Below are positions 1-11,234 of a stretch of 12,682 nt of DNA, piece by piece (position 1 is the first letter of the stretch; each line of letters opens with the position of its first letter). The position numbers and the translations under genes are program-made. Source of the stretch: an uncultured Oscillospiraceae bacterium (GTDB taxonomy: Bacteria; Bacillota; Clostridia; Oscillospirales; Oscillospiraceae); NCBI GenBank assembly GCA_934636305.1, contig CAKUAM010000057.1:1-12682 (forward strand), read 5' to 3'. The notes beneath the pieces were generated by a model. The model had not been told where the DNA came from and did no database searches. It worked only from the letters and a program-made list of their open reading frames with translations.

Positions 1-482
1 GGGCTGTCTCCAATGGCATGGAGAAGATGACCCGGTCGCTGTGGAGACTGGATATTGTGCAGCGGCGAACTCCCTTTGCGGTACCCGACCGCTGTACGAT
101 ACCGGATATGAACCTGCATTGCGGTGCTACCCGGCTTCAAGCCGTGAACGCTGTGTGCAGCGTAGCCTGCCTTGCGTGGACCGGCCGGGAAAGGAAAGCT
201 GATGCGTCCAGCGCTCATGGCCTTGAGCACGGGCGATATTTCCTTGAAAGACGGTCTGCAAAAGAGGATAAGAGCCAGAGGAACCTGTTGTGGAAATCAC
301 CTAGGCTGTCGAAAGGGCCTCTATGGGATTGCGGTACGGACTAAGTGGCAATCGGGTAGTGGTTATGGCAACAAACCAACTGCAGCATGAAAGGGAAACC
401 GCCTCCATCGGCGACGAGAGGATGCTCCCGGGGAAAACAAACCCGACCTAAGCCGTAAGATTAACCATAGAGGCTGCCATTG
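1..482 (+). ncRNA. ole: OLE RNA (ornate large extremophilic RNA), 5' end uncertain
   Basis: This is a long stretch without a credible gene directly upstream of an OapA-type membrane protein gene and dxs, which is the classical place of OLE RNA. In the family it forms a membrane-bound ribonucleoprotein with OapA, linked in Bacillus halodurans (Halalkalibacterium) to tolerance of short-chain alcohols, cold and excess magnesium. Helices visible by eye are 57-65 with 89-97 (nine pairs, one G-U), hairpin 132-135/141-144, hairpin 148-153/158-163 with a UGUG loop, 191-197 with 239-245 enclosing hairpin 213-217/224-228, 277-281 with 318-322, and 429-432 with 442-445. AATGGCA at 12-18 is complementary to TGCCATT at 475-481 and may join the two ends. 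Family members are typically near 600 nt, so this copy is either compact or begins left of the window. The identification rests on gene context plus structure, not on a covariance-model search. Confidence 0.85.
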
Positions 483-514
483 CGCAACTTCATTAAAGTT
501 TACATAATTTTTAC

Positions 515-519
515 GGAGG
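515..519 (+). promoter_or_regulatory. Ribosome binding site that fixes the oapA start
   Basis: GGAGG lies five bases before a TTG codon at 525. The same frame is open back to another TTG at 480, but that codon has no Shine-Dalgarno sequence and sits inside the possible end-closing helix of the OLE RNA. TTG 525 is therefore the likely start. Confidence 0.75.
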
Positions 520-524
520 CTGTT

Positions 525-1118
525 TTGGCTGCTGCAAAAAAGAAAAAGGGTGGGAAATCGTCCCGGCCCGATTATAAATGGATTGCGCTGATTTTCCTGA
601 CAACTGTGCTCATTTCGGCGCTGATGAGCTTCGTCTCGTCGAATCTGCTCGACGGTGCGGGGCTGTTTCTTTCGTTTGGAATCCTGATCGGTATTGTGCT
701 GATCGGCATTATTTTTGATATCATCGGCGTAGCCGTGACGGCGGCGGACGAAGCGCCGTTCCATGCCATGGCGTCCCGGAAGGTTCCGGAGGCAGAGGAT
801 GCGCTGCGCCTGATCCGCAACGCAAACAAGGTTTCCTCCTTCTGCAATGACGTCATCGGCGATATCTGCGGCGTTATTTCCGGCTCGGCGGCAGCAGTCA
901 TTGCCGCGCGTGTTTTTCTGCTGAGCAAAAGCGGCTCGGAGATTTTCCTGACGCTGCTTTTGTCCGCGCTTGTCTCCGGCATGACGGTCGGCGGCAAGGC
1001 ATGCGGAAAAACGCTCGCCATGAACTCCAGCACAAGTGTGGTGCGCACGGCAGCACGTGTCATCTGTTTTTTCCGGACGCTGCCGAAGCGTCTGCAGCGC
1101 AGACACGCAAAAAAATAG
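525..1118 (+). CDS. oapA: OLE-associated membrane protein OapA
   Basis: This 197-residue protein starts at TTG 525. It has a very basic N-terminus (KKKK at 5-8), hydrophobic segments at about 19-37, 46-72, 113-132 and 137-157, and an Arg/Lys-rich tail suited to holding RNA at the inner face of the membrane. D109 and D113 form a DxxxD arrangement at the edge of the third segment, a feature described for OapA proteins. A conserved-looking block with D75-E76 follows the second segment. OapA is the membrane partner of OLE RNA and in B. halodurans affects magnesium and alcohol sensitivity; its molecular activity is not settled. It sits 3' of the RNA and 5' of dxs, matching the known arrangement. 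The family call comes from context, size and topology, without an alignment. Confidence 0.87.
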   Translation: MAAAKKKKGGKSSRPDYKWIALIFLTTVLISALMSFVSSNLLDGAGLFLSFGILIGIVLIGIIFDIIGVAVTAADEAPFHAMASRKVPEAEDALRLIRNANKVSSFCNDVIGDICGVISGSAAAVIAARVFLLSKSGSEIFLTLLLSALVSGMTVGGKACGKTLAMNSSTSVVRTAARVICFFRTLPKRLQRRHAKK

Positions 1119-1225: not shown

Positions 1226-3064
1226 ATGATTTTAGATTCCATCCATTCCAGACAGGATCTGCTTGCGCTGGGCAGCGATCAGCTTGATGCGCTGGCCGGT
1301 GAGATCCGGCAGTTCCTTGTCGATTCCATCAGCCGCACAGGCGGCCATCTGGCGTCAAATCTCGGCATTGTCGAGACGACGCTTGCCATCCACCGCGTCT
1401 TTGATACCAGCCGGGACAGGCTGGTCTTTGATGTCGGGCATCAGTGCTATGTACATAAGCTCCTGACGGGCCGTATGGAGGGCTTTTCCTCTCTGCGGCA
1501 GAAGGGCGGCATGTCAGGCTTTCCGAAGCCGTGTGAGAGCGTGCACGATGCGTTTATTGCCGGTCACGCCTCCAATGCCGTTTCTGTGGCGCTCGGCATG
1601 GCGCGGGCCCGGACACTCCAGCAGGAGGATTACCGCGTGGTGGCGCTGCTGGGTGACGGTGCGCTGACGGGTGGCCTTGCCTATGAGGGCTTCAACAATG
1701 CTGGGGCCAGCCGTGAGCCGCTGATCGTCATTCTCAACGACAACGGCATGTCCATCACGCCAAACGTCGGTGCAATTTCCCGCTATCTCGCGCAGGCGCG
1801 TCTGCAGCCCGGATATCTTGATCTCAAGCTGCGCTACCGCAGCCGGACAGCGCAGGATCCGTTTGGCCGGCGGCTTTACAAGATCACCCATAAGGTCAAA
1901 AGCCGGATCAAGCGCTCGATCCTTGGCACAACGCTCTTTGAAAATCTTGGCTTTACCTATCTCGGCCCGGCAGACGGGCATGACATTGCACAGATTGAAT
2001 CGCTGCTCCGCACGGCGGTCGCGCTGCAGGAGCCGGTTCTGATCCACCTCATCACCAAAAAGGGCAAGGGCTATGCCCCGGCGGAAAAGACGCCGCAGGA
2101 TTTCCACGGCGTGGGAAAATTTAACCCGGATACGGGCCGGACAAGCACCGCGCCGGCAGTCTCGTTCTCTGATGCATTTGGCCAGCAGATGTGCCGTCTG
2201 GCGGCAAGCGACAAATCCATCTGCGCCATCACTGCAGCCATGCAGCATGGCACGGGGCTCGATTCCTTTGCAGAGGTCTATTCCAGGCGCTTTTTTGACG
2301 TCGGCATTGCCGAAGGGCATGCGGTCTGCATGGCGGCTGGTCTTGCCAAGCAGGGGATGAAGCCTGTTGTTGCAATCTACTCCACATTTTTGCAGCGTGC
2401 GTATGACATGCTGCTGCACGATGTTGCACTGCAGCAGCTGCATGTGGTTTTTGCCGTTGACCGCAGTGGTCTTGTCGGTGAGGACGGCGAGACACACCAG
2501 GGGATGTTTGATACCGGGTTTCTGCGGCAGATCCCGGGCATGCGGATCTACTGTCCGGCCAGCTTTCAGGAGCTGTGCGAGGATCTGCAGGCAGCCGTGT
2601 ATGACTGCGCAGGTCCAGCGGCGATCCGCTATCCGCGCGGCGGCGAGGGCATCTACCGGCAGAGCACCAGCCAGACGCTGCTGCGTCCTGGCCGGGACTG
2701 CACCATCGTCTGCTACGGAACCATGGTCAATGCGGCATTGGAGGCCGCAGAGCTTTTGCACAGGCGCGGCATTTCAGCAGAGATTCTGAAGCTGCGCACC
2801 ATCGCGCCTGTCGATTATGACGCAATTGAGGCATCCGTCCGGCGGACCGGACGTGTATTTGTCATAGAAGAAACATCCGACCGCGCCTGCGTCGCAGATG
2901 AGATATTCTCCAATCTGGCGCAGCGCGGCGCTGCGGCGCTGTGCCGCAAACAAAATCTTGGCCGCGGATTTATCCCGCATGGCCGCGTCAGCGAGCTGCT
3001 GGCCGCTGCCGGGCTGGACGGTGCGTCCGTCGCACAGATGATACAGGAGGAACTGTCCCGATGA
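1226..3064 (+). CDS. dxs: 1-deoxy-D-xylulose-5-phosphate synthase
   Basis: Dxs condenses pyruvate with glyceraldehyde 3-phosphate to make DXP, the first step of the MEP isoprenoid pathway and a precursor for thiamine and pyridoxal phosphate. The 612-residue product has the usual family length. The thiamine diphosphate motif is GDGALTGG at 143-150 with downstream NDNG at 171-174. The pyrimidine-domain block around DVGIAEGHAV (358-367) carries the catalytic glutamate E363; the family's usual AEQHAV reads AEGHAV here, a variant I believe occurs in Clostridia. DRSGLVGEDGETHQG (412-426) and a C-terminal transketolase-type domain follow. The frame is open far upstream, but ATG 1226 is chosen because GAGG at 1217-1220 precedes it by five bases and the protein then begins at the normal family start. 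It overlaps tlyA by ATGA. Confidence 0.96.
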   Translation: MILDSIHSRQDLLALGSDQLDALAGEIRQFLVDSISRTGGHLASNLGIVETTLAIHRVFDTSRDRLVFDVGHQCYVHKLLTGRMEGFSSLRQKGGMSGFPKPCESVHDAFIAGHASNAVSVALGMARARTLQQEDYRVVALLGDGALTGGLAYEGFNNAGASREPLIVILNDNGMSITPNVGAISRYLAQARLQPGYLDLKLRYRSRTAQDPFGRRLYKITHKVKSRIKRSILGTTLFENLGFTYLGPADGHDIAQIESLLRTAVALQEPVLIHLITKKGKGYAPAEKTPQDFHGVGKFNPDTGRTSTAPAVSFSDAFGQQMCRLAASDKSICAITAAMQHGTGLDSFAEVYSRRFFDVGIAEGHAVCMAAGLAKQGMKPVVAIYSTFLQRAYDMLLHDVALQQLHVVFAVDRSGLVGEDGETHQGMFDTGFLRQIPGMRIYCPASFQELCEDLQAAVYDCAGPAAIRYPRGGEGIYRQSTSQTLLRPGRDCTIVCYGTMVNAALEAAELLHRRGISAEILKLRTIAPVDYDAIEASVRRTGRVFVIEETSDRACVADEIFSNLAQRGAAALCRKQNLGRGFIPHGRVSELLAAAGLDGASVAQMIQEELSR

Positions 3065-3870
3065 AGCATAAGGAACGGCTGGACGTGCTGCTTGTCGCGC
3101 GGAATCTGGCAGAATCGCGCAGCAAAGCGCAGGCCATGATTATGGCGGGGGAGGTTTATGTAAACGAGCAGAAGGCCGACAAGGCCGGACTTGAGATCAA
3201 CGTGGATGAAAATCCTGTTATTGAGGTCCGCGGCAGCACCTGCCCGTATGTCAGCCGCGGCGGCTGGAAGCTGGAAAAGGCGCTGCGGGATTTCCATGTA
3301 GATCCGAACGGCTTTGTCTGCAGCGACTCAGGCGCGTCGACGGGTGGCTTTACCGACTGTCTGCTGCAGCAGGGGGCAAGCAAGGTGTTTGCCATCGATG
3401 TCGGCTACGGCCAGCTGGCGTGGAAGATCCGCTCGGATCCGCGTGTGGTTGTGATGGAGCGGACGAACATCCGCTATGTGACACCGGAGGATCTGGGCGA
3501 GCCGCTGGATCTTTCCGTGGTGGATGTCTCGTTTATATCGCTGCGCATCGTCCTGCCGGCCATCAAGCGGCTGCTCAAGCCCACCGGGCAGGTGCTCTGT
3601 CTCATCAAGCCGCAGTTTGAAGCCGGAAAAGAGAACATTGGGAAAAAGGGCGTCGTCCGTGACCCGGCCGTCCATGCACAGGTGCTGCAGAGCTTTATCG
3701 CGCTTGCCAATGAGCTGCAGCTGACCATCCGGGATCTGACCTATTCGCCGGTCAAGGGCCCGGAGGGGAATATTGAGTTTCTCGCGCATCTTTCCATGCA
3801 GCCGGGGGAGGATCATTATCCGCCGGTTGCAGAGCTGGTGGAACAGGCACACAAAGCTTTGAAAGGTTAA
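3061..3870 (+). CDS. tlyA: TlyA/YqxC family rRNA (cytidine-2'-O)-methyltransferase
   Basis: This 269-residue protein has an N-terminal S4 RNA-binding domain (about 4-62) and an FtsJ-like Rossmann methyltransferase domain. The junction is the conserved SRGGWKLEKAL at 65-75, and the SAM-binding loop begins DSGASTGGFTDC at 89-100. K70, D155 (VDVSFISL), K183 (IKPQFE) and E239 fit the catalytic K-D-K-E tetrad of 2'-O-methyltransferases. Characterised TlyA proteins methylate 16S and 23S rRNA, which affects capreomycin susceptibility; older annotations call them hemolysin A. The start ATG 3061 overlaps the dxs stop as ATGA, and AGGAGG at 3045-3050 lies ten bases upstream inside dxs, which suggests translational coupling. 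Which rRNA positions are modified here cannot be read from sequence. Confidence 0.93.
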   Translation: MKHKERLDVLLVARNLAESRSKAQAMIMAGEVYVNEQKADKAGLEINVDENPVIEVRGSTCPYVSRGGWKLEKALRDFHVDPNGFVCSDSGASTGGFTDCLLQQGASKVFAIDVGYGQLAWKIRSDPRVVVMERTNIRYVTPEDLGEPLDLSVVDVSFISLRIVLPAIKRLLKPTGQVLCLIKPQFEAGKENIGKKGVVRDPAVHAQVLQSFIALANELQLTIRDLTYSPVKGPEGNIEFLAHLSMQPGEDHYPPVAELVEQAHKALKG

Positions 3871-3876
3871 CTTGCT

Positions 3877-4746
3877 ATGAAAATCGTCGTCTCCCCGAAC
3901 CCATACCGGGACAAACAATTCAGAAATGCCAGACAGGCCGTCAATATCCTGAAGGAGGCGGGGGCGGAGGTTGTGCTCTGCCTGCCGTTCGACGTGGATA
4001 AAAGCTTTGAGATCCCGGCGGATCTGCATTTCCGCGACATTCAGAAGGAAATCCGCACGGCGGATCTGCTGATCTGCTTTGGCGGCGACGGAACAATTCT
4101 GCATTCCTCCAAAATCGCCACAGAGCATGGGATTCCCATTCTTGGCGTCAATATCGGCACAATGGGCTTCATCGCGGAGCTGGAGGCTGGGGAGATTGAG
4201 CTTCTGCGGAAAATTCCAACCGGCGAGTACTCCATCGACGAGCGCACCATGCTGGATGTCACCGTTACAGGCAGCAGCCGGCAGGTTCTTCTGCACGAGA
4301 CGGCGCTCAACGACGCGGTCATCACCAAGGGTGCAATCGCGCGCGTCGTTCAGCTTGGGATTTATTGCGACGGCATTGAGGCCACAAGCTTTTCCGGCGA
4401 CGGCGTGATTTTGTGCACGCCAACGGGCTCCACAGCATATTCCATGTCGGCCGGCGGCCCGATCATTGAGCCATCCGCGAAAAACTTCCTCATCACGCCG
4501 ATCTGCGCGCACGCCATGCTGGCAAAAAGCATCGTCGTCGCGCCGGAACGCGTTGTCACAGTCAAGGTCGGCAAGGTCGGACGGCACAACGCGTTTTTGT
4601 CTGTGGACGGCGGACGGGCGTTCCGGCTGAATGTCGGCGACGAGATCACTGTAAAAGGCGCCAGGAAGGTCACAAAACTTGTCCGGCTAAAGGATATCAG
4701 CTTTTTTGAGATACTCAACAAGAAATTCATCGAAAAAATGAGGTAA
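3877..4746 (+). CDS. nadK: NAD kinase
   Basis: NadK phosphorylates NAD to NADP using ATP in the cytoplasm. The 289-residue protein has the diagnostic GGDGT motif at 69-73, an LND motif at 144-146, and the glycine-rich TPTGSTAYSMSAGGPI at 181-196 that shapes the active site. Length is normal. The start is ATG 3877, six bases after the tlyA stop; its ribosome site is modest (AAGG 3864-3867, nine-base spacing) and lies inside the end of tlyA, which points to translation coupled with the upstream gene. The tlyA-nadK-argR-recN order is common in Clostridia. NADP supply also serves the MEP pathway enzymes downstream of Dxs, although that link with dxs is inference. Confidence 0.96.
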   Translation: MKIVVSPNPYRDKQFRNARQAVNILKEAGAEVVLCLPFDVDKSFEIPADLHFRDIQKEIRTADLLICFGGDGTILHSSKIATEHGIPILGVNIGTMGFIAELEAGEIELLRKIPTGEYSIDERTMLDVTVTGSSRQVLLHETALNDAVITKGAIARVVQLGIYCDGIEATSFSGDGVILCTPTGSTAYSMSAGGPIIEPSAKNFLITPICAHAMLAKSIVVAPERVVTVKVGKVGRHNAFLSVDGGRAFRLNVGDEITVKGARKVTKLVRLKDISFFEILNKKFIEKMR

Positions 4747-4753
4747 CACCCAT

Positions 4754-5209
4754 ATGAAATCAAAACGGCAGGAGAAGATTCTGGAACTGATCCTCGACCA
4801 CAGCGTCCAGACGCAGGAGCAGCTGCTGGCAGAGCTGGAATCGGCGGGTTTCCATACCACGCAGGCCACCATTTCACGCGATATCAAGCAGCTGCGTATC
4901 ATCAAGGAGCTTGGCCCGGACGGCACGTACCGCTATTCCACGGCGCCGAAGCCTGCAGAGCATACGTTTTCCGCCAAGCTGAACCTGATCTTCCGGCAGT
5001 GCATCACAAGTGTGGACTATGCACAGAACATGATCGTGGTCAAGACCATGCCGGGCCTTGCCAGCGGCGCTGCCTCCGCGATCGATAAGCTGAACATTCC
5101 GGAAATGCTCGGCACGCTTGCCGGCGATGACACCTGCTTTGTCGTACTGAAGGACACGCAGTCCGCGGCAGAGCTCTGCGCGGAAATCCAGGAGCAGATC
5201 CAGCACTGA
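4754..5209 (+). CDS. argR: Arginine repressor ArgR/AhrC
   Basis: This is a 151-residue hexameric repressor/activator of arginine biosynthesis and catabolism that binds ARG boxes when loaded with arginine. The N-terminal winged helix-turn-helix carries QATISRDIKQL at 37-47, matching the family recognition element. The C-terminal arginine-binding and oligomerisation domain ends with the signature GTLAGDDT at 120-127, whose aspartates contact arginine in the family. Start ATG 4754 follows GAGGT at 4740-4744 with nine-base spacing, the motif overlapping the nadK stop. No arginine genes are nearby, so its targets lie elsewhere; the argR-recN neighbourhood is a conserved Firmicutes arrangement rather than a functional pathway. 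Confidence 0.95.
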   Translation: MKSKRQEKILELILDHSVQTQEQLLAELESAGFHTTQATISRDIKQLRIIKELGPDGTYRYSTAPKPAEHTFSAKLNLIFRQCITSVDYAQNMIVVKTMPGLASGAASAIDKLNIPEMLGTLAGDDTCFVVLKDTQSAAELCAEIQEQIQH

Positions 5210-5224: not shown

Positions 5225-5231
5225 TATGCAC

Positions 5232-6905
5232 ATGCTTTCCACCCTGCATATTGAAAACATTGCCGTCATTGAGCGCGCGGAGATCGGCTTTGACCATGGG
5301 TTCAATGTCCTGACCGGCGAGACCGGCGCGGGCAAATCCATCGTGATTGACGCCATTTCTGCCATTTCCGGCGAGCGTGCGTCGCGGGAGATGATCCGGA
5401 CAGGAGCTGCGCAGGCGTTTGTGAGCGCGATTTTTACGAACGTGCCTGAGCTTGCGTGGTTCGCGGAAAACCAGGTGCCGTATACGCCGGAGGTGTCTGT
5501 CTCACGCGAGATTTTTGCAGACGGAAAAAATGCCTGCCGTGTCAATGGCCGCCCGGTTACGGTTGCCACGCTGCGAAAGCTCGGCGTCCAGCTGATCCAG
5601 ATCCACGGCCAGCATGACTCGCAGCAGCTGTTTGACGAGCAGACGCACATTGGCTATCTTGATCTGTTTGCGCGCGATGAGGCGCTTCTGGCCCGCTATC
5701 AGGCGGCGTACAGCAAGGCCTCTGCCGTGCGGCAGGAGATCCGGCGGCTTTCCATGGATGAATCGGAGAAGCTGCGGCTGGTTGAGACGCTGCGGTTCCA
5801 GATCGACGAGATTGCGCGCGCAGAGCTGCAGCCCGGCGAGGAGGAGGAGCTGCTGGACAGGCGGAAGATCCTGCAGAACGCTGAGAAGCTGACAGACGCT
5901 ATCGAATCTGCAGTGGCTGCGCTGTATGGCGACGAGAGCGCCGACGGCGCCGCGGCCATGATTGCAAACGCTGCGCATGCGCTGGAAAAGGTCAGCCGCG
6001 TGTCGGACGATATGCGTGCGCTGAGCACAAGCCTTACCGATCTTATGTATACCGCGCAGGATCTTGCTGAGCAGCTGCGCGATAAAAAGGACGATCTGAC
6101 ATATTCCGCCGACGAGCTGGAAACGCTGGAGGAGCGGCTGGATGTCATTCACAAGCTCAAGCGCAAATATGGCAGCAGCATTGAGGAGATTCTTGCCTTC
6201 CAGGCAAAAGCGCAGCAGCAGCTGGGGGACGTGGAGTTCGCGTCCGACCGCATTGCGCAGCTGCAGAAGCAGCTGACGCAGCTGGATGAAACGCTTCGGA
6301 AGGAGGGCCTTGCGCTGCGTCAGGCGCGGCAGGCCGCAGCCAGGCAGCTGCAGGCCGCAATTACCTCAGAGCTTACGCAGCTCGATATGCCGAAAATTCA
6401 GTTTGTCTGCGAATTTTCCGAGCAGCCGCCGCAGGAAAATGGAATGGACGCGGTGCGCTTTCTGATGTCCGCAAATGTCGGCGAGTCGCTGCGGCCGTTA
6501 TCCAAGGTTGCCTCCGGCGGTGAGCTTGCACGCATTATGCTTGCCATGAAAAATGTCCTGGCCGCGGAGGAATCCGTGGGGACAATGATCTTTGACGAGG
6601 TTGACGCCGGCGTCAGCGGTCGCGCAGCGCAGAAGGTCGCCTATAAGCTCTGGACGGTCAGCCATGGCCGGCAGGTGCTGTGCGTGACGCATCTGCCGCA
6701 GCTGGCCGCTATGGCGGACGCAGAATACACCGTCGAAAAGCGCGTGGAAAACGGCAGAACGTATACGCACATTCTGCATCTGGACGATGCAGGCCGCCGG
6801 CAGGAGCTGGCACGGCTCATCGGCGGCAGCATGATTACAGAAACAACGCTGGCCGGCGCGGCAGAGCTGCTGCGTCTGGCCGAGGAAACTAAAAGAGGAG
6901 TTTAA
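5232..6905 (+). CDS. recN: DNA repair protein RecN
   Basis: RecN is an SMC-like ATPase that acts early at DNA double-strand breaks. The 557-residue product has the Walker A motif GETGAGKS at 29-36, a Q-loop region with IHGQHDSQQL, and a long central helical part rich in Glu, Gln, Leu and Arg consistent with the coiled-coil arms. The ABC signature lies in KVASGGELAR at 425-434 and the Walker B in IFDEVDAG at 453-460, followed by the conserved CVTHLPQLAAMAD. Length is typical (about 550). The gene lies 22 bases after argR and ends one base before the start of the SLH-protein gene, so it is almost certainly cotranscribed with both. No LexA or DinR box is visible because there is no intergenic promoter space. 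Confidence 0.96.
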   Translation: MLSTLHIENIAVIERAEIGFDHGFNVLTGETGAGKSIVIDAISAISGERASREMIRTGAAQAFVSAIFTNVPELAWFAENQVPYTPEVSVSREIFADGKNACRVNGRPVTVATLRKLGVQLIQIHGQHDSQQLFDEQTHIGYLDLFARDEALLARYQAAYSKASAVRQEIRRLSMDESEKLRLVETLRFQIDEIARAELQPGEEEELLDRRKILQNAEKLTDAIESAVAALYGDESADGAAAMIANAAHALEKVSRVSDDMRALSTSLTDLMYTAQDLAEQLRDKKDDLTYSADELETLEERLDVIHKLKRKYGSSIEEILAFQAKAQQQLGDVEFASDRIAQLQKQLTQLDETLRKEGLALRQARQAAARQLQAAITSELTQLDMPKIQFVCEFSEQPPQENGMDAVRFLMSANVGESLRPLSKVASGGELARIMLAMKNVLAAEESVGTMIFDEVDAGVSGRAAQKVAYKLWTVSHGRQVLCVTHLPQLAAMADAEYTVEKRVENGRTYTHILHLDDAGRRQELARLIGGSMITETTLAGAAELLRLAEETKRGV

Positions 6906-8218: not shown

Positions 8219-8599
8219 ATGCTATCTTCCGTTCGTCGGCTGCCGGACGCCGAGCTGGCCGTGATGCAGGCCATCTGGGCCGAAACGCCGCCGGTTTCGC
8301 GCGCGCAGATCCACGTACACCTGGAAGCGGCGCAGCACCCCATGGCGGAGACAACGCTTCTGACGCTTTTGTCAAGACTGGCAGAAAAGGGCTTTGTCCG
8401 CGTCGAGCGCACGGGCCGCAGCGCAAGCTATGTCCCGCTTGTCTGTGCGCAGGACTATCTAGCCCAGCAAAGCCGGCGCTTTCTTGACCAGCTGTGCGGC
8501 GGGAGCATGCCGGCCTTTGCTGCTGCGCTCTGCGGCGGCGGACTGACCAGGCAGGAGCTGCAGCAGCTGCGGGAGCTTCTGGAGCGCGATGCATTATGA
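8219..8599 (+). CDS. BlaI/MecI/CopY family transcriptional repressor
   Basis: This 126-residue cytoplasmic repressor has the family's opening LPDAELAVMQAIW (8-20) and winged-helix core, with recognition-helix region ETTLLTLLSRLAEKGFV (44-60) followed by a wing at VERTGRSASYVPL. The C-terminal part (about 78-126) is the dimerisation helix bundle. In BlaI and MecI the repressor is inactivated by proteolysis when the partner sensor is triggered; the scissile position cannot be placed with certainty here. Start ATG 8219 has GGAGAGG at 8205-8211, seven bases upstream. The gene overlaps the M56 protease gene by ATGA, and twin operators lie in its own promoter, so the pair is probably autoregulated. 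No beta-lactamase or copper gene is adjacent, so the regulon is unknown. Confidence 0.92.
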   Translation: MLSSVRRLPDAELAVMQAIWAETPPVSRAQIHVHLEAAQHPMAETTLLTLLSRLAEKGFVRVERTGRSASYVPLVCAQDYLAQQSRRFLDQLCGGSMPAFAAALCGGGLTRQELQQLRELLERDAL

Positions 8600-10059
8600 G
8601 TACAGGCATTCTTTGGCGGGTGCTTCTTTCCGCCTTTGCTGCCGTCATGCTGACCTGGCGCGTCTGGGACCGCACGAATAAGGAGCTGCATCCCAAGGAC
8701 GAAGCAGCTCCCCGCTACCTTCCGTATGCGGTGGATATGCTGCCGCTGATTGTGCTGGCGCTTGTGGTCGTATCCCTTGCGGCGGGCGGGTGGAAGCTGG
8801 CGGCGCAGGAGCTTCTGAGCATTCTGCTGGTCATTTTTCTGCAGGTCTGCGTGTATGACGCTGTCCTTCTTGCGCTGCTGCCGTTTCTGCGGCGGCACAT
8901 CAGCGCCAGAACCTGCGCGCTTTTGTGGCTGCTGCCGAATTATCTGTATATTCTGAACTACAACTTCTATACGCGTCTGCTGAAGCCGAACTGGGTCGTG
9001 TACACAAAAGGGACGCTTGCCTATGTGCTGCTGGCCGTGTGGGCGGCTGGATTTCTGCTTGTGATGGGCTGGAACACACTTTCCCATCTGGTGTTTCGTG
9101 CGCAGCTGCTTAAAAATGCTGTGCCGGTCCATGAGCCGGAGGTGCTGGCTATCTGGCAGCAGGAGCTGACACGCGCCGGGATTGGAACCTGCAAATGCCG
9201 CCTGGTGCGTTCGGCGCGAACGGCGACGCCCTTGACAATCGGGCTTTTTTCGCGTACAACCTGCGTGGTGCTGCCGATGCGCGGCTATACGCCGGAGGAG
9301 CTGACCCTTGCGCTGCGTCATGAACTGATCCACATTGGGCGCGAGGATGCACGGGGAAAGTTTTTCCTCGTATTCTGTACGGCCATGTGCTGGTTCAATC
9401 CGCTTTTGTGGATTGCCATGCGCAAAAGCGCGGACGATTTTGAACGCAGCTGTGACGAGACGGTGCTGCTTGGCGAGGATCGCAGCGTGCGCCGGCAGTA
9501 CGCCTCGCTTCTTCTGCAGACGGCGGGCGACGAGCGCGGCTTTACAACGTGCCTGTCCGCCTCGGCAGCGGCGCTGCGGTACCGGCTCAAGAGCATTATG
9601 GAGCCCGCAAACAGGCGCTCCGGTGTGATATTGGCAGGCGTGCTGTTTTTCGTACTGCTTCTGAGCTGCGGGCGCATCGCCCTGGCATACGATGGCCAGA
9701 CAGGAGCCGTCCGGATTTTTCAGGGGCAGGCGTTCTCCGCCTTTTCCGTCCGTACCGCACGCCAGTGGGACACAGCGGGAGATACCGATCTGCGCTGTAC
9801 AGACGAAGCTTCGCTCTGCAGCTATCTTTCCGGGCTGGAGCTGTGCGAGCTGACCGGGGATTACGATTTTTCAGAGGACTCGCGGGAGCTGACTCTGATT
9901 TTTGACACGCCGCAGGGTGTGCTCGGCGTGACGCTCTATGACCGGGCAGTCCGGCTGTCCCCCCTGTACGGCGAGAAGCCGCGCGCACAGACCTGGTATC
10001 TGCCGGAGGGGATAAGCTGGACCCAGATCGACAGCTGGCTGCAGCCGGAAACAGCGTAA
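8596..10059 (+). CDS. M56-family membrane metallopeptidase, BlaR1/MecR1-like sensor protease
   Basis: This 487-residue integral membrane protein has hydrophobic segments at about 5-21, 46-64, 73-97, 105-122, 138-158, 254-274 and 342-360. The cytoplasm-facing zinc protease domain has HELIH at 242-246 (H242, E243, H246), with FNPLLW (267-272) and ERSCDE (283-288) supplying the likely third ligand region, as in BlaR1/MecR1. After the last membrane segment, residues 365-487 form an extracytoplasmic domain rich in Asp, Leu and Tyr that lacks the SxxK and related motifs of the penicillin-binding sensor of BlaR1, so beta-lactam sensing is unlikely. ATG 8596 is chosen because it overlaps the repressor stop; an upstream in-frame ATG at 8494 lies inside the repressor gene. 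By family analogy it relays an envelope signal by cleaving, or triggering cleavage of, the repressor. Confidence 0.9.
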   Translation: MSTGILWRVLLSAFAAVMLTWRVWDRTNKELHPKDEAAPRYLPYAVDMLPLIVLALVVVSLAAGGWKLAAQELLSILLVIFLQVCVYDAVLLALLPFLRRHISARTCALLWLLPNYLYILNYNFYTRLLKPNWVVYTKGTLAYVLLAVWAAGFLLVMGWNTLSHLVFRAQLLKNAVPVHEPEVLAIWQQELTRAGIGTCKCRLVRSARTATPLTIGLFSRTTCVVLPMRGYTPEELTLALRHELIHIGREDARGKFFLVFCTAMCWFNPLLWIAMRKSADDFERSCDETVLLGEDRSVRRQYASLLLQTAGDERGFTTCLSASAAALRYRLKSIMEPANRRSGVILAGVLFFVLLLSCGRIALAYDGQTGAVRIFQGQAFSAFSVRTARQWDTAGDTDLRCTDEASLCSYLSGLELCELTGDYDFSEDSRELTLIFDTPQGVLGVTLYDRAVRLSPLYGEKPRAQTWYLPEGISWTQIDSWLQPETA

Positions 10060-10108: not shown

Positions 10109-10378
10109 CAATATCGTGACAGTGATGAAGGGAAGAAGTATCCTGCAAGACGTCTGCAGAGAGTTTCCGGTTGGTGCAAGGAAACAGGCGCAGCAGGGGA
10201 ATACATCCCGGAGCTGCCCTCTGAAAGGTATGTTGGCCGAGTAGGGGTGTGTCGGGTGCGCCCGTTATCGCGCAGGGGCGTGTTGGCGCTCCGTAAGGTC
10301 GTTTCCGTGAGGGGGCGGCAAACCAGAGGTGGTACCGCGATCATTCGCCCTCTGCTCGTTTGAGCAGGGGGCGTTTTT
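10109..10378 (+). ncRNA. Tyrosine T-box riboswitch leader
   Basis: This leader senses uncharged tRNA(Tyr) and turns on downstream genes when tyrosyl-tRNA is scarce. Stem I shows an AGTA element (10137-10140), the distal-loop signature with AGAGAG and GGTTGGTG (about 10158-10177), and the specifier GAA-TAC-A with TAC, a tyrosine codon, at 10202-10204. The T-box proper, AGAGGTGGTACCGCG, is at 10325-10339. Its TGGT bulge pairs with an ACCA 3' end, which fits the discriminator A of tRNA(Tyr). CAGAGG 10324-10329 can pair with CCTCTG 10349-10354 to form the antiterminator, which excludes the terminator. Tyrosyl-tRNA synthetase lies downstream, agreeing with the specifier. The 5' boundary is inferred from the promoter. 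Confidence 0.96.
10346..10378 (+). terminator. T-box-controlled intrinsic terminator
   Basis: A 12-bp stem (10346-10357 with 10362-10373, one G-U pair) closes on a GTTT loop and is followed by five T residues. Its 5' arm contains the CCTCTG needed for the antiterminator, so the two structures are mutually exclusive. Confidence 0.95.
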
Positions 10379-10396: not shown

Positions 10397-10696
10397 ATGC
10401 GGCAGAAAACCTGTTCCGCCTGCGGCGGGAAAATGCAGAATATCGGAAATATGGAGCTGCAGAAGGGGAGGTTCAGCGTTCTCTTTGGCCACTGGGATCA
10501 GCTCCTGGCAGGCACGCTGGACGTAGACGTGGAATGCTGCACGCACTGCAGAAAGCTCGAGTTTTACCTGCTTGGCGACGCCAAGGCGCCGGAACCGAGC
10601 GGCATCGGGCAGACTGCCTGCCCTTATTGCGGCGAGACGCACGACATGGACGACGCCATCTGCCCGCACTGCGGCAAACGCCTGATGGAATTGTAA
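10397..10696 (+). CDS. Small zinc-ribbon protein
   Basis: This 99-residue cytoplasmic protein has three cysteine pairs: CSAC (6-9) with CTHC (48-51), probably one zinc site, and a C-terminal CPYC/CPHC pair forming a second compact zinc ribbon. The segment ending CRKLEFYLLG resembles short Firmicutes zinc-ribbon proteins annotated as nucleic-acid binding, but no function can be assigned. Start ATG 10397 has AAAGGAG at 10384-10390, six bases upstream. It is the first gene behind the T-box terminator, so its expression should rise with uncharged tRNA(Tyr). It lies 25 bases before the next gene's start codon. Confidence 0.82.
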   Translation: MRQKTCSACGGKMQNIGNMELQKGRFSVLFGHWDQLLAGTLDVDVECCTHCRKLEFYLLGDAKAPEPSGIGQTACPYCGETHDMDDAICPHCGKRLMEL

Positions 10697-10721
10697 ATCC
10701 CCCTACTTGATGGAGGAAGCC

Positions 10722-11234
10722 ATGAAAAAGTCACACAAAATCCTGCTGGTACTCGCTCTTTTGGTCGCAGCCGCGGTCGTGATCGTGATATCAAATCTGC
10801 CCATAGCCAAAACGCAGGAGGCGGTGGGAGAGCTGCTTCGGAAGAAGCTTGACCTCCCGCAGGACGCTGTCATAACCTGCGCTGGAGACTATACGGCGGA
10901 TGCGTATACAATGCTCTGGTTTAGAATACAGAATCAGGACATGACGCTTTATCGGGCTGTGGACTGCCGTGTGCTGAATAACGGAGGCTATTGGGTGAAA
11001 AAGATATACACCCCCAGCGCATACGCGCGGAATATCGTGCACGTTGTATGGCGGTATACATGCGATATTGTTCTCATCAACAATTCCGACTGCCGTTCGA
11101 TCGTTTATCATACCTCTTACGATGAGGAGAAAACGGAGCTTTCGTCCGGAGACATTCCGTATATCTTTTTATTGCCGCAGTCTGGCTACTTCACATGCGA
11201 TTTTCTGGACGCTGCCGGAAACAGCATCCGATAA
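10722..11234 (+). CDS. Hypothetical membrane-anchored or secreted protein
   Basis: This 170-residue protein starts with a basic MKKSHK, then a hydrophobic stretch (about 7-24), without a clear lipobox or cleavage site, so it is either a single-pass anchor or a signal peptide. The exported part (25-170) is rich in Tyr, Asp and Cys, with tracts such as TMLWFRIQNQ and GYFTCDFLDAAG that suggest a small beta-rich domain. I do not recognise the family. The start is ATG 10722 because GGAGG (10712-10716) precedes it by five bases; the upstream TTG 10707 and ATG 10710 overlap that site. It reads visibly more AT-rich than its neighbours, hinting at acquisition. It sits between the tyrosine T-box and tyrS. 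Confidence 0.72.
   Translation: MKKSHKILLVLALLVAAAVVIVISNLPIAKTQEAVGELLRKKLDLPQDAVITCAGDYTADAYTMLWFRIQNQDMTLYRAVDCRVLNNGGYWVKKIYTPSAYARNIVHVVWRYTCDIVLINNSDCRSIVYHTSYDEEKTELSSGDIPYIFLLPQSGYFTCDFLDAAGNSIR

Follow-up and report, generated by a model that had tools for sequence, protein, structure and literature searches.

The locus at the 5′ end of contig CAKUAM010000057.1 (assembly GCA_934636305.1, an uncultured Oscillospiraceae bacterium) raises the question of whether a structured region of ~480 nucleotides (nt) and the gene behind it encode an OLE RNA and its membrane partner OapA, as a first-pass annotation had claimed. To answer it, we analyzed the whole 12,682-nt stretch, hereafter the window. 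Few bacterial RNAs whose biochemical function is unknown are larger than OLE. In Halalkalibacterium halodurans, according to the literature, OLE RNA associates with OapA and is retained at the membrane. Its other binding partners are OapB, OapC, and bS21, and cells require it to grow under cold, alcohol, Mg2+, and carbon-source stress. Passages of PMC12265935, PMC9723947, and PMC12054373 describe a membrane particle, made up of OLE, OapA, OapB, OapC, and bS21, that promotes growth during cold, alcohol, and Mg2+ stress, and a part of PMC12286853 reports OLE dimers. We estimate a probability of ~93% that the window carries an OLE RNA gene, represented by its 3′ three quarters, together with oapA in their usual neighborhood, in a host near uncultured Oscillospiraceae/Ruminococcaceae, the pair having, we infer, a role in such a membrane particle.

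The 5′ end of the window is a canonical OLE RNA

The Rfam OLE model (RF01071) matched window positions 1 to 496 on the forward strand with a highly significant score of 287.8 bits (E = 2e-81; gathering score, 50), which bears out the assignment of the structured region to OLE. The match covers model positions 151 to 616 of 616 and is truncated by the window start. Since it begins at model position 151, ~150 nt of the OLE 5′ end must precede the window; the 5′ domain, with the OapA sites P2 and P4a and the k-turn for OapC, would lie in this upstream part. In two near relatives, POC01 (G002) and G132, OLE matches the entire model (1 to 616). The guanine-plus-cytosine (GC) content is 55.4% in the OLE part and 57.5% in the whole window. 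No large deletion relative to the Rfam model was found in the covered part, and the window OLE therefore looks like the full-length type. In this it is unlike OLE variants 1 and 2 (TANB77 and RF39 clades), which passages of PMC11332333 place in the same family and also in gut bacteria; the comparison is made on the alignment as a whole.

Conservation was assessed against 38 comparison OLE RNAs (fetched loci L081 to L089 and L108 to L136), 30 of them from a family of relatives comprising 150 genomes; the partial L137 and ten further family matches without a fetched locus were left out. Ten of the 38 sequences lacked a two-word orientation motif on either strand and entered the alignment in the orientation that Infernal assigned. 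Within its covered part, the window OLE keeps all 152 columns that are conserved in at least 37 of these RNAs. When the window was aligned with 19 homologues, 70 of 117 consensus pairs showed at least one change on both sides that preserves pairing. By contrast with this comparative evidence, the single-sequence folding energy of positions 1 to 482 was only mildly low (z = −2.15; 3 of 100 shuffled sequences folded as well or better). The “dense secondary structure” of the first-pass annotation thus holds up through conserved columns and compensatory changes, which are the stronger evidence; folding energy is so weakly unusual that such structure alone would not have proved OLE. Overall, window positions 1 to 496 are a canonical OLE RNA and not a chance structure.

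A GGCGAC hairpin is kept inside the window OLE (positions 401 to 422, approximate limits, forward strand; motif at 410 to 415, at the tip), as judged from the alignment to the RF01071 model, invariant residues, and the motif position. Nucleotides G410, G411, A414, and C415 are invariant in 20 sequences. We take this hairpin to be of the P13 type and hence a putative OapB-binding site. P13 is the OapB-binding site according to the literature.

Could the RNA be a decayed, nonfunctional copy beside a working OapA? The 5′ part of OLE lies beyond the window, and scores in the relatives’ family (316.6 to 504.8 bits) are often lower than those of other OLE hosts (up to 561.9 bits), the window score being reduced by truncation as well. 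However, a copy with no departures at 152 conserved columns, from a group of relatives that shows compensatory changes, does not look decayed, and the pair in genome G209 that does look so is very different: its OLE match spans 381 nt, cut short by two large gaps, and a stop interrupts the frame of its oapA early on. We therefore consider decay of the window copy very improbable.

An equally remote alternative is that the element is a cis-regulatory, riboswitch-like leader of oapA-dxs rather than a free-standing RNA. The RF01071 match lies on the oapA strand and stops 28 nt short of the oapA start; at the OLE 3′ end, where no terminator scan was made, a clear poly-U run was not seen. Yet the match to the OLE family extends across every model position that falls within the window; in genome G039, a 786–amino acid (aa) gene separates OLE from oapA; one of two OLE copies in genome G159 precedes dxs without oapA; and, in the literature, H. 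halodurans OLE acts as a particle in trans.

The adjoining gene encodes OapA, a CNNM-like membrane protein

The oapA gene (525 to 1118, forward strand) starts with TTG, preceded by ACGGAGG at 513 to 519, and encodes a 197-aa membrane protein. It is recognized by its homologues, their alignment, and a predicted CNNM-like fold. The window protein is 38 to 87% identical to 31 homologues, drawn from the best 80 loci with homologues, and shares their invariant residues. The previously noted DxxxD pair (D109 and D113) is invariant in all 32 aligned sequences, and the basic ends are likewise present.

No model of OapA turned up in NCBIfam or Pfam, and NCBIfam gave no family for the 197-aa protein, so a profile check of the kind proposed in the first-pass annotation had nothing to match. 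The identity of OapA therefore rests on identity to homologues, invariant residues, and the presence of OLE in the genomes that carry it. The sole Pfam match was to the CNNM domain PF01595, at 18.8 bits against a cut-off of 28.4; this subthreshold match fits the published kinship of OapA and CNNM proteins. The predicted fold is CNNM/CorB-like, the membrane domain resembling the structures of the CNNM Mg2+ transporters MpfA and CorB (7m1t and 7cff). Unlike these transporters, the window OapA gave no Pfam match to tandem CBS or CorC_HlyC domains. Judging from the predicted fold, OapA is CNNM-like, and we do not count it as a member of the CNNM/MpfA family.

OLE and OapA occur together in related genomes

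OLE was found in 57 of 58 OapA-bearing genomes tested (9 of 10 and 48 of 48 in two sets, counted at the genome level). In the sole exception, RUG14158 (G001), OapA is located at a contig end and the last 57 nt of OLE remain, at 96.6% identity. In the 150-genome family, OLE was present in 40 genomes and OapA in 41, these being the same 40 and RUG14158; neither was found in the other 109. The distribution (40 genomes with both and one cut by a contig end) backs the view of RNA and protein as one device. Thus, OLE and OapA closely co-occur in related genomes, and the assignment of the window locus draws support from gene order as well as from sequence, structure, and conservation.

The CorC_HlyC domain, used here as the indicator of MpfA-type proteins, was detected in 10 of 41 OapA genomes compared to 99 of 109 genomes without OapA. 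The published anticorrelation of OLE/OapA with MpfA thus holds within the family, with shared ancestry and incomplete assemblies as a caveat. RUG14158 and POC01 are among the exceptions, encoding proteins of 424 and 441 aa, respectively, with CNNM, CBS, and CorC_HlyC domains; no CorC_HlyC protein was found in G132, the third genome of the RUG14158 genus. The genus of Clostridium senegalense departs from the anticorrelation, with CorC present in 7 of 7 genomes and OLE in 4 of 7.

The same counts bear on whether OapA alone could be active as an MpfA-like ion transporter, with OLE RNA as a membrane-anchored accessory. The predicted CNNM-like fold, the invariant DxxxD, and the anticorrelation with CorC all agree with such a transporter. 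This explanation is nevertheless unlikely, given that RNA and protein are present or absent together across the family, apart from the contig-cut case, and that, in the passages of PMC9723947 bearing on this point, disruption of OLE RNA, OapA, or OapB has one and the same outcome, sensitivity to cold, alcohol, and Mg2+.

Proposed role and partners

The comparisons are consistent with a joint device, in which OLE RNA of this host would dimerize and dock on OapA dimers, and the resulting membrane particle would adjust the handling of divalent cations and the response to stress. OapA would supply its CNNM-like membrane component, and the regulatory work of the CBS and CorC domains of MpfA may fall to the RNA together with OapB and OapC. 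That OLE RNA is the RNA equivalent of the regulatory CBS/CorC half in a CNNM ion exporter whose membrane half is OapA is a tentative proposal, more doubtful than not; the idea of OLE replacing the CBS/CorC part already appears in passages of PMC11332333 and PMC12265935. Since two of the three nearest relatives have both the RNA device and the all-protein one (MpfA), the two devices may divide rather than duplicate work, and the nearest relatives of the host could help to separate their roles. Neither the window locus nor the family-wide count changes what is known of the mechanism.

The relatives appear, from sequence comparisons, to encode both further partners. In POC01, a gene flanked by map and infA encodes 95 aa and matches the solved OapB structure 7k9b (E = 1.6e-8), and a 102-aa gene at the same place in genome G003 matches OapB with E = 6.1e-5. 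The genomic context of OapC was examined in POC01, where a gene for an L7Ae-type protein lies between rpoC and rpsL and a separate YlxQ-type gene follows nusA. The former is at the place expected for YbxF/OapC; the locations typical of the YbzG and YbxF genes are assumed here.

Host and gene neighborhood

The host is close to uncultured Oscillospiraceae/Ruminococcaceae and related to rumen and gut Ruminococcaceae. The window is 78.5% identical to RUG14158 DNA over 6 kilobases (kb), which suggests that both belong to the same genus. Over aligned columns, the window OLE is 79% identical to that of G132 (L131/L156) and 77% identical to that of POC01 (L089); in both genomes, the segment from OLE through recN is colinear with the window by blastn.

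Comparison with the H. halodurans system, as described in parts of PMC12265935 and PMC11332333, reveals the same RNA family, the same immediate neighbor oapA, and a shared neighborhood of isoprenoid, translation, DNA repair, and argR genes. H. halodurans is an alkaliphilic Bacillus, whereas the window host is GC-rich and near uncultured Oscillospiraceae, and the 5′ quarter of its OLE is beyond the window. The locus is a good further example of an already described system and not a new one. While the host is GC-rich, as first noted, the suggestion that it broadens the sampling of OLE is largely not borne out: OLE occurs in 40 of the 150 genomes in the family of its relatives, and the 2024 survey (PMC11332333), in the passages that treat distribution, already records it from most major Bacillota classes, with uncultured gut clades among the carriers, so the known range is not much extended. 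Comparative work does gain a divergent sequence from a canonical OLE in a GC-rich Oscillospiraceae-like host.

The five genes annotated downstream of oapA were recovered by family matches, all on the forward strand. They are dxs, encoding 1-deoxy-D-xylulose-5-phosphate synthase (1226 to 3064, start codon chosen by eye; TIGR00204, 670 bits); tlyA, encoding a TlyA-family rRNA methyltransferase with S4 and FtsJ domains (3061 to 3870, start also chosen by eye; TIGR00478, 279 bits, and Pfam); nadK, encoding NAD kinase (3877 to 4746); argR, encoding the arginine repressor (4754 to 5209; TIGR01529, 137.6 bits, and Pfam); and recN, encoding a DNA repair protein (5226 to 6905; TIGR00634, 529 bits). All TIGR scores exceed their cut-offs. 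For nadK, the NCBIfam equivalog models matched below every cut-off, and both Pfam NAD-kinase cut-offs (PF20143 and PF01513) were passed.

The claim that OLE and OapA head this operon proved to be an effect of the window edge. In G132, xseA, xseB, and ispA (with exonuclease VII large-subunit, small-subunit, and polyprenyl synthetase domains) precede OLE, and the window starts inside OLE; OLE thus does not head the cluster. The usual order is xse-ispA-OLE-oapA-dxs-tlyA-nadK-argR-recN, the part left of OLE being seen in relatives only. A passage of PMC12265935 describes the genes of the H. halodurans OLE locus as a single transcript.

Past recN, the window contains genes for an SLH-domain protein, a BlaI/M56 pair, a T-box, genes for a zinc-ribbon protein and a 175-aa protein that matched no NCBIfam family, and tyrS. 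The gene for the BlaI-type repressor overlaps that for the M56 (BlaR1-like) peptidase (8219 to 10059), and the pair lies between the SLH gene and the T-box. Checked by tblastn, a 12-kb stretch of POC01 contained the SLH protein, gave a weak M56 match, and yielded no BlaI. The T-box leader (10116 to 10355; 99 bits) has a UAC (Tyr) codon at what we presume, from the placement rule assumed here, to be the specifier position. The zinc-ribbon and 175-aa genes (10397 to 11234) separate it from tyrS and may have come under tyrosine control. In G132, by contrast, the T-box and tyrS come right after recN and directly adjoin each other; of the two, only the window has the SLH, BlaI, and M56 genes and the two extra genes at these places. 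In POC01, ~750 nt lie between T-box and tyrS.

Atypical OLE loci in other genomes

Two OLE copies were found in 1 of 99 OLE-positive genomes examined, that of Clostridium senegalense JC122 (G159; L138, L139, and L151 to L153), and both match the model over its full length. The first occupies the usual xseA-ispA-OLE-dxs place without oapA, with 306 nt between OLE and dxs; the second is located elsewhere, near transporter genes and beside the only oapA found in that genome. In another genome of the C. senegalense genus (G209; L154), the gapped OLE and the interrupted oapA that adjoins it seem to be decaying together, with sequencing error as the alternative. The gene intervening between OLE and oapA in G039 (L146, 312 to 4062) has a marginal match to the solute-binding-protein family PF01547 (26.4 bits; cut-off, 26). 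Most other OLE matches span roughly 580 to 690 nt, and unusually long ones were observed in L140 (G114; 833 nt), L141 (G018; 841 nt), L142 (G120; 762 nt), and L143 (G199; 845 nt).
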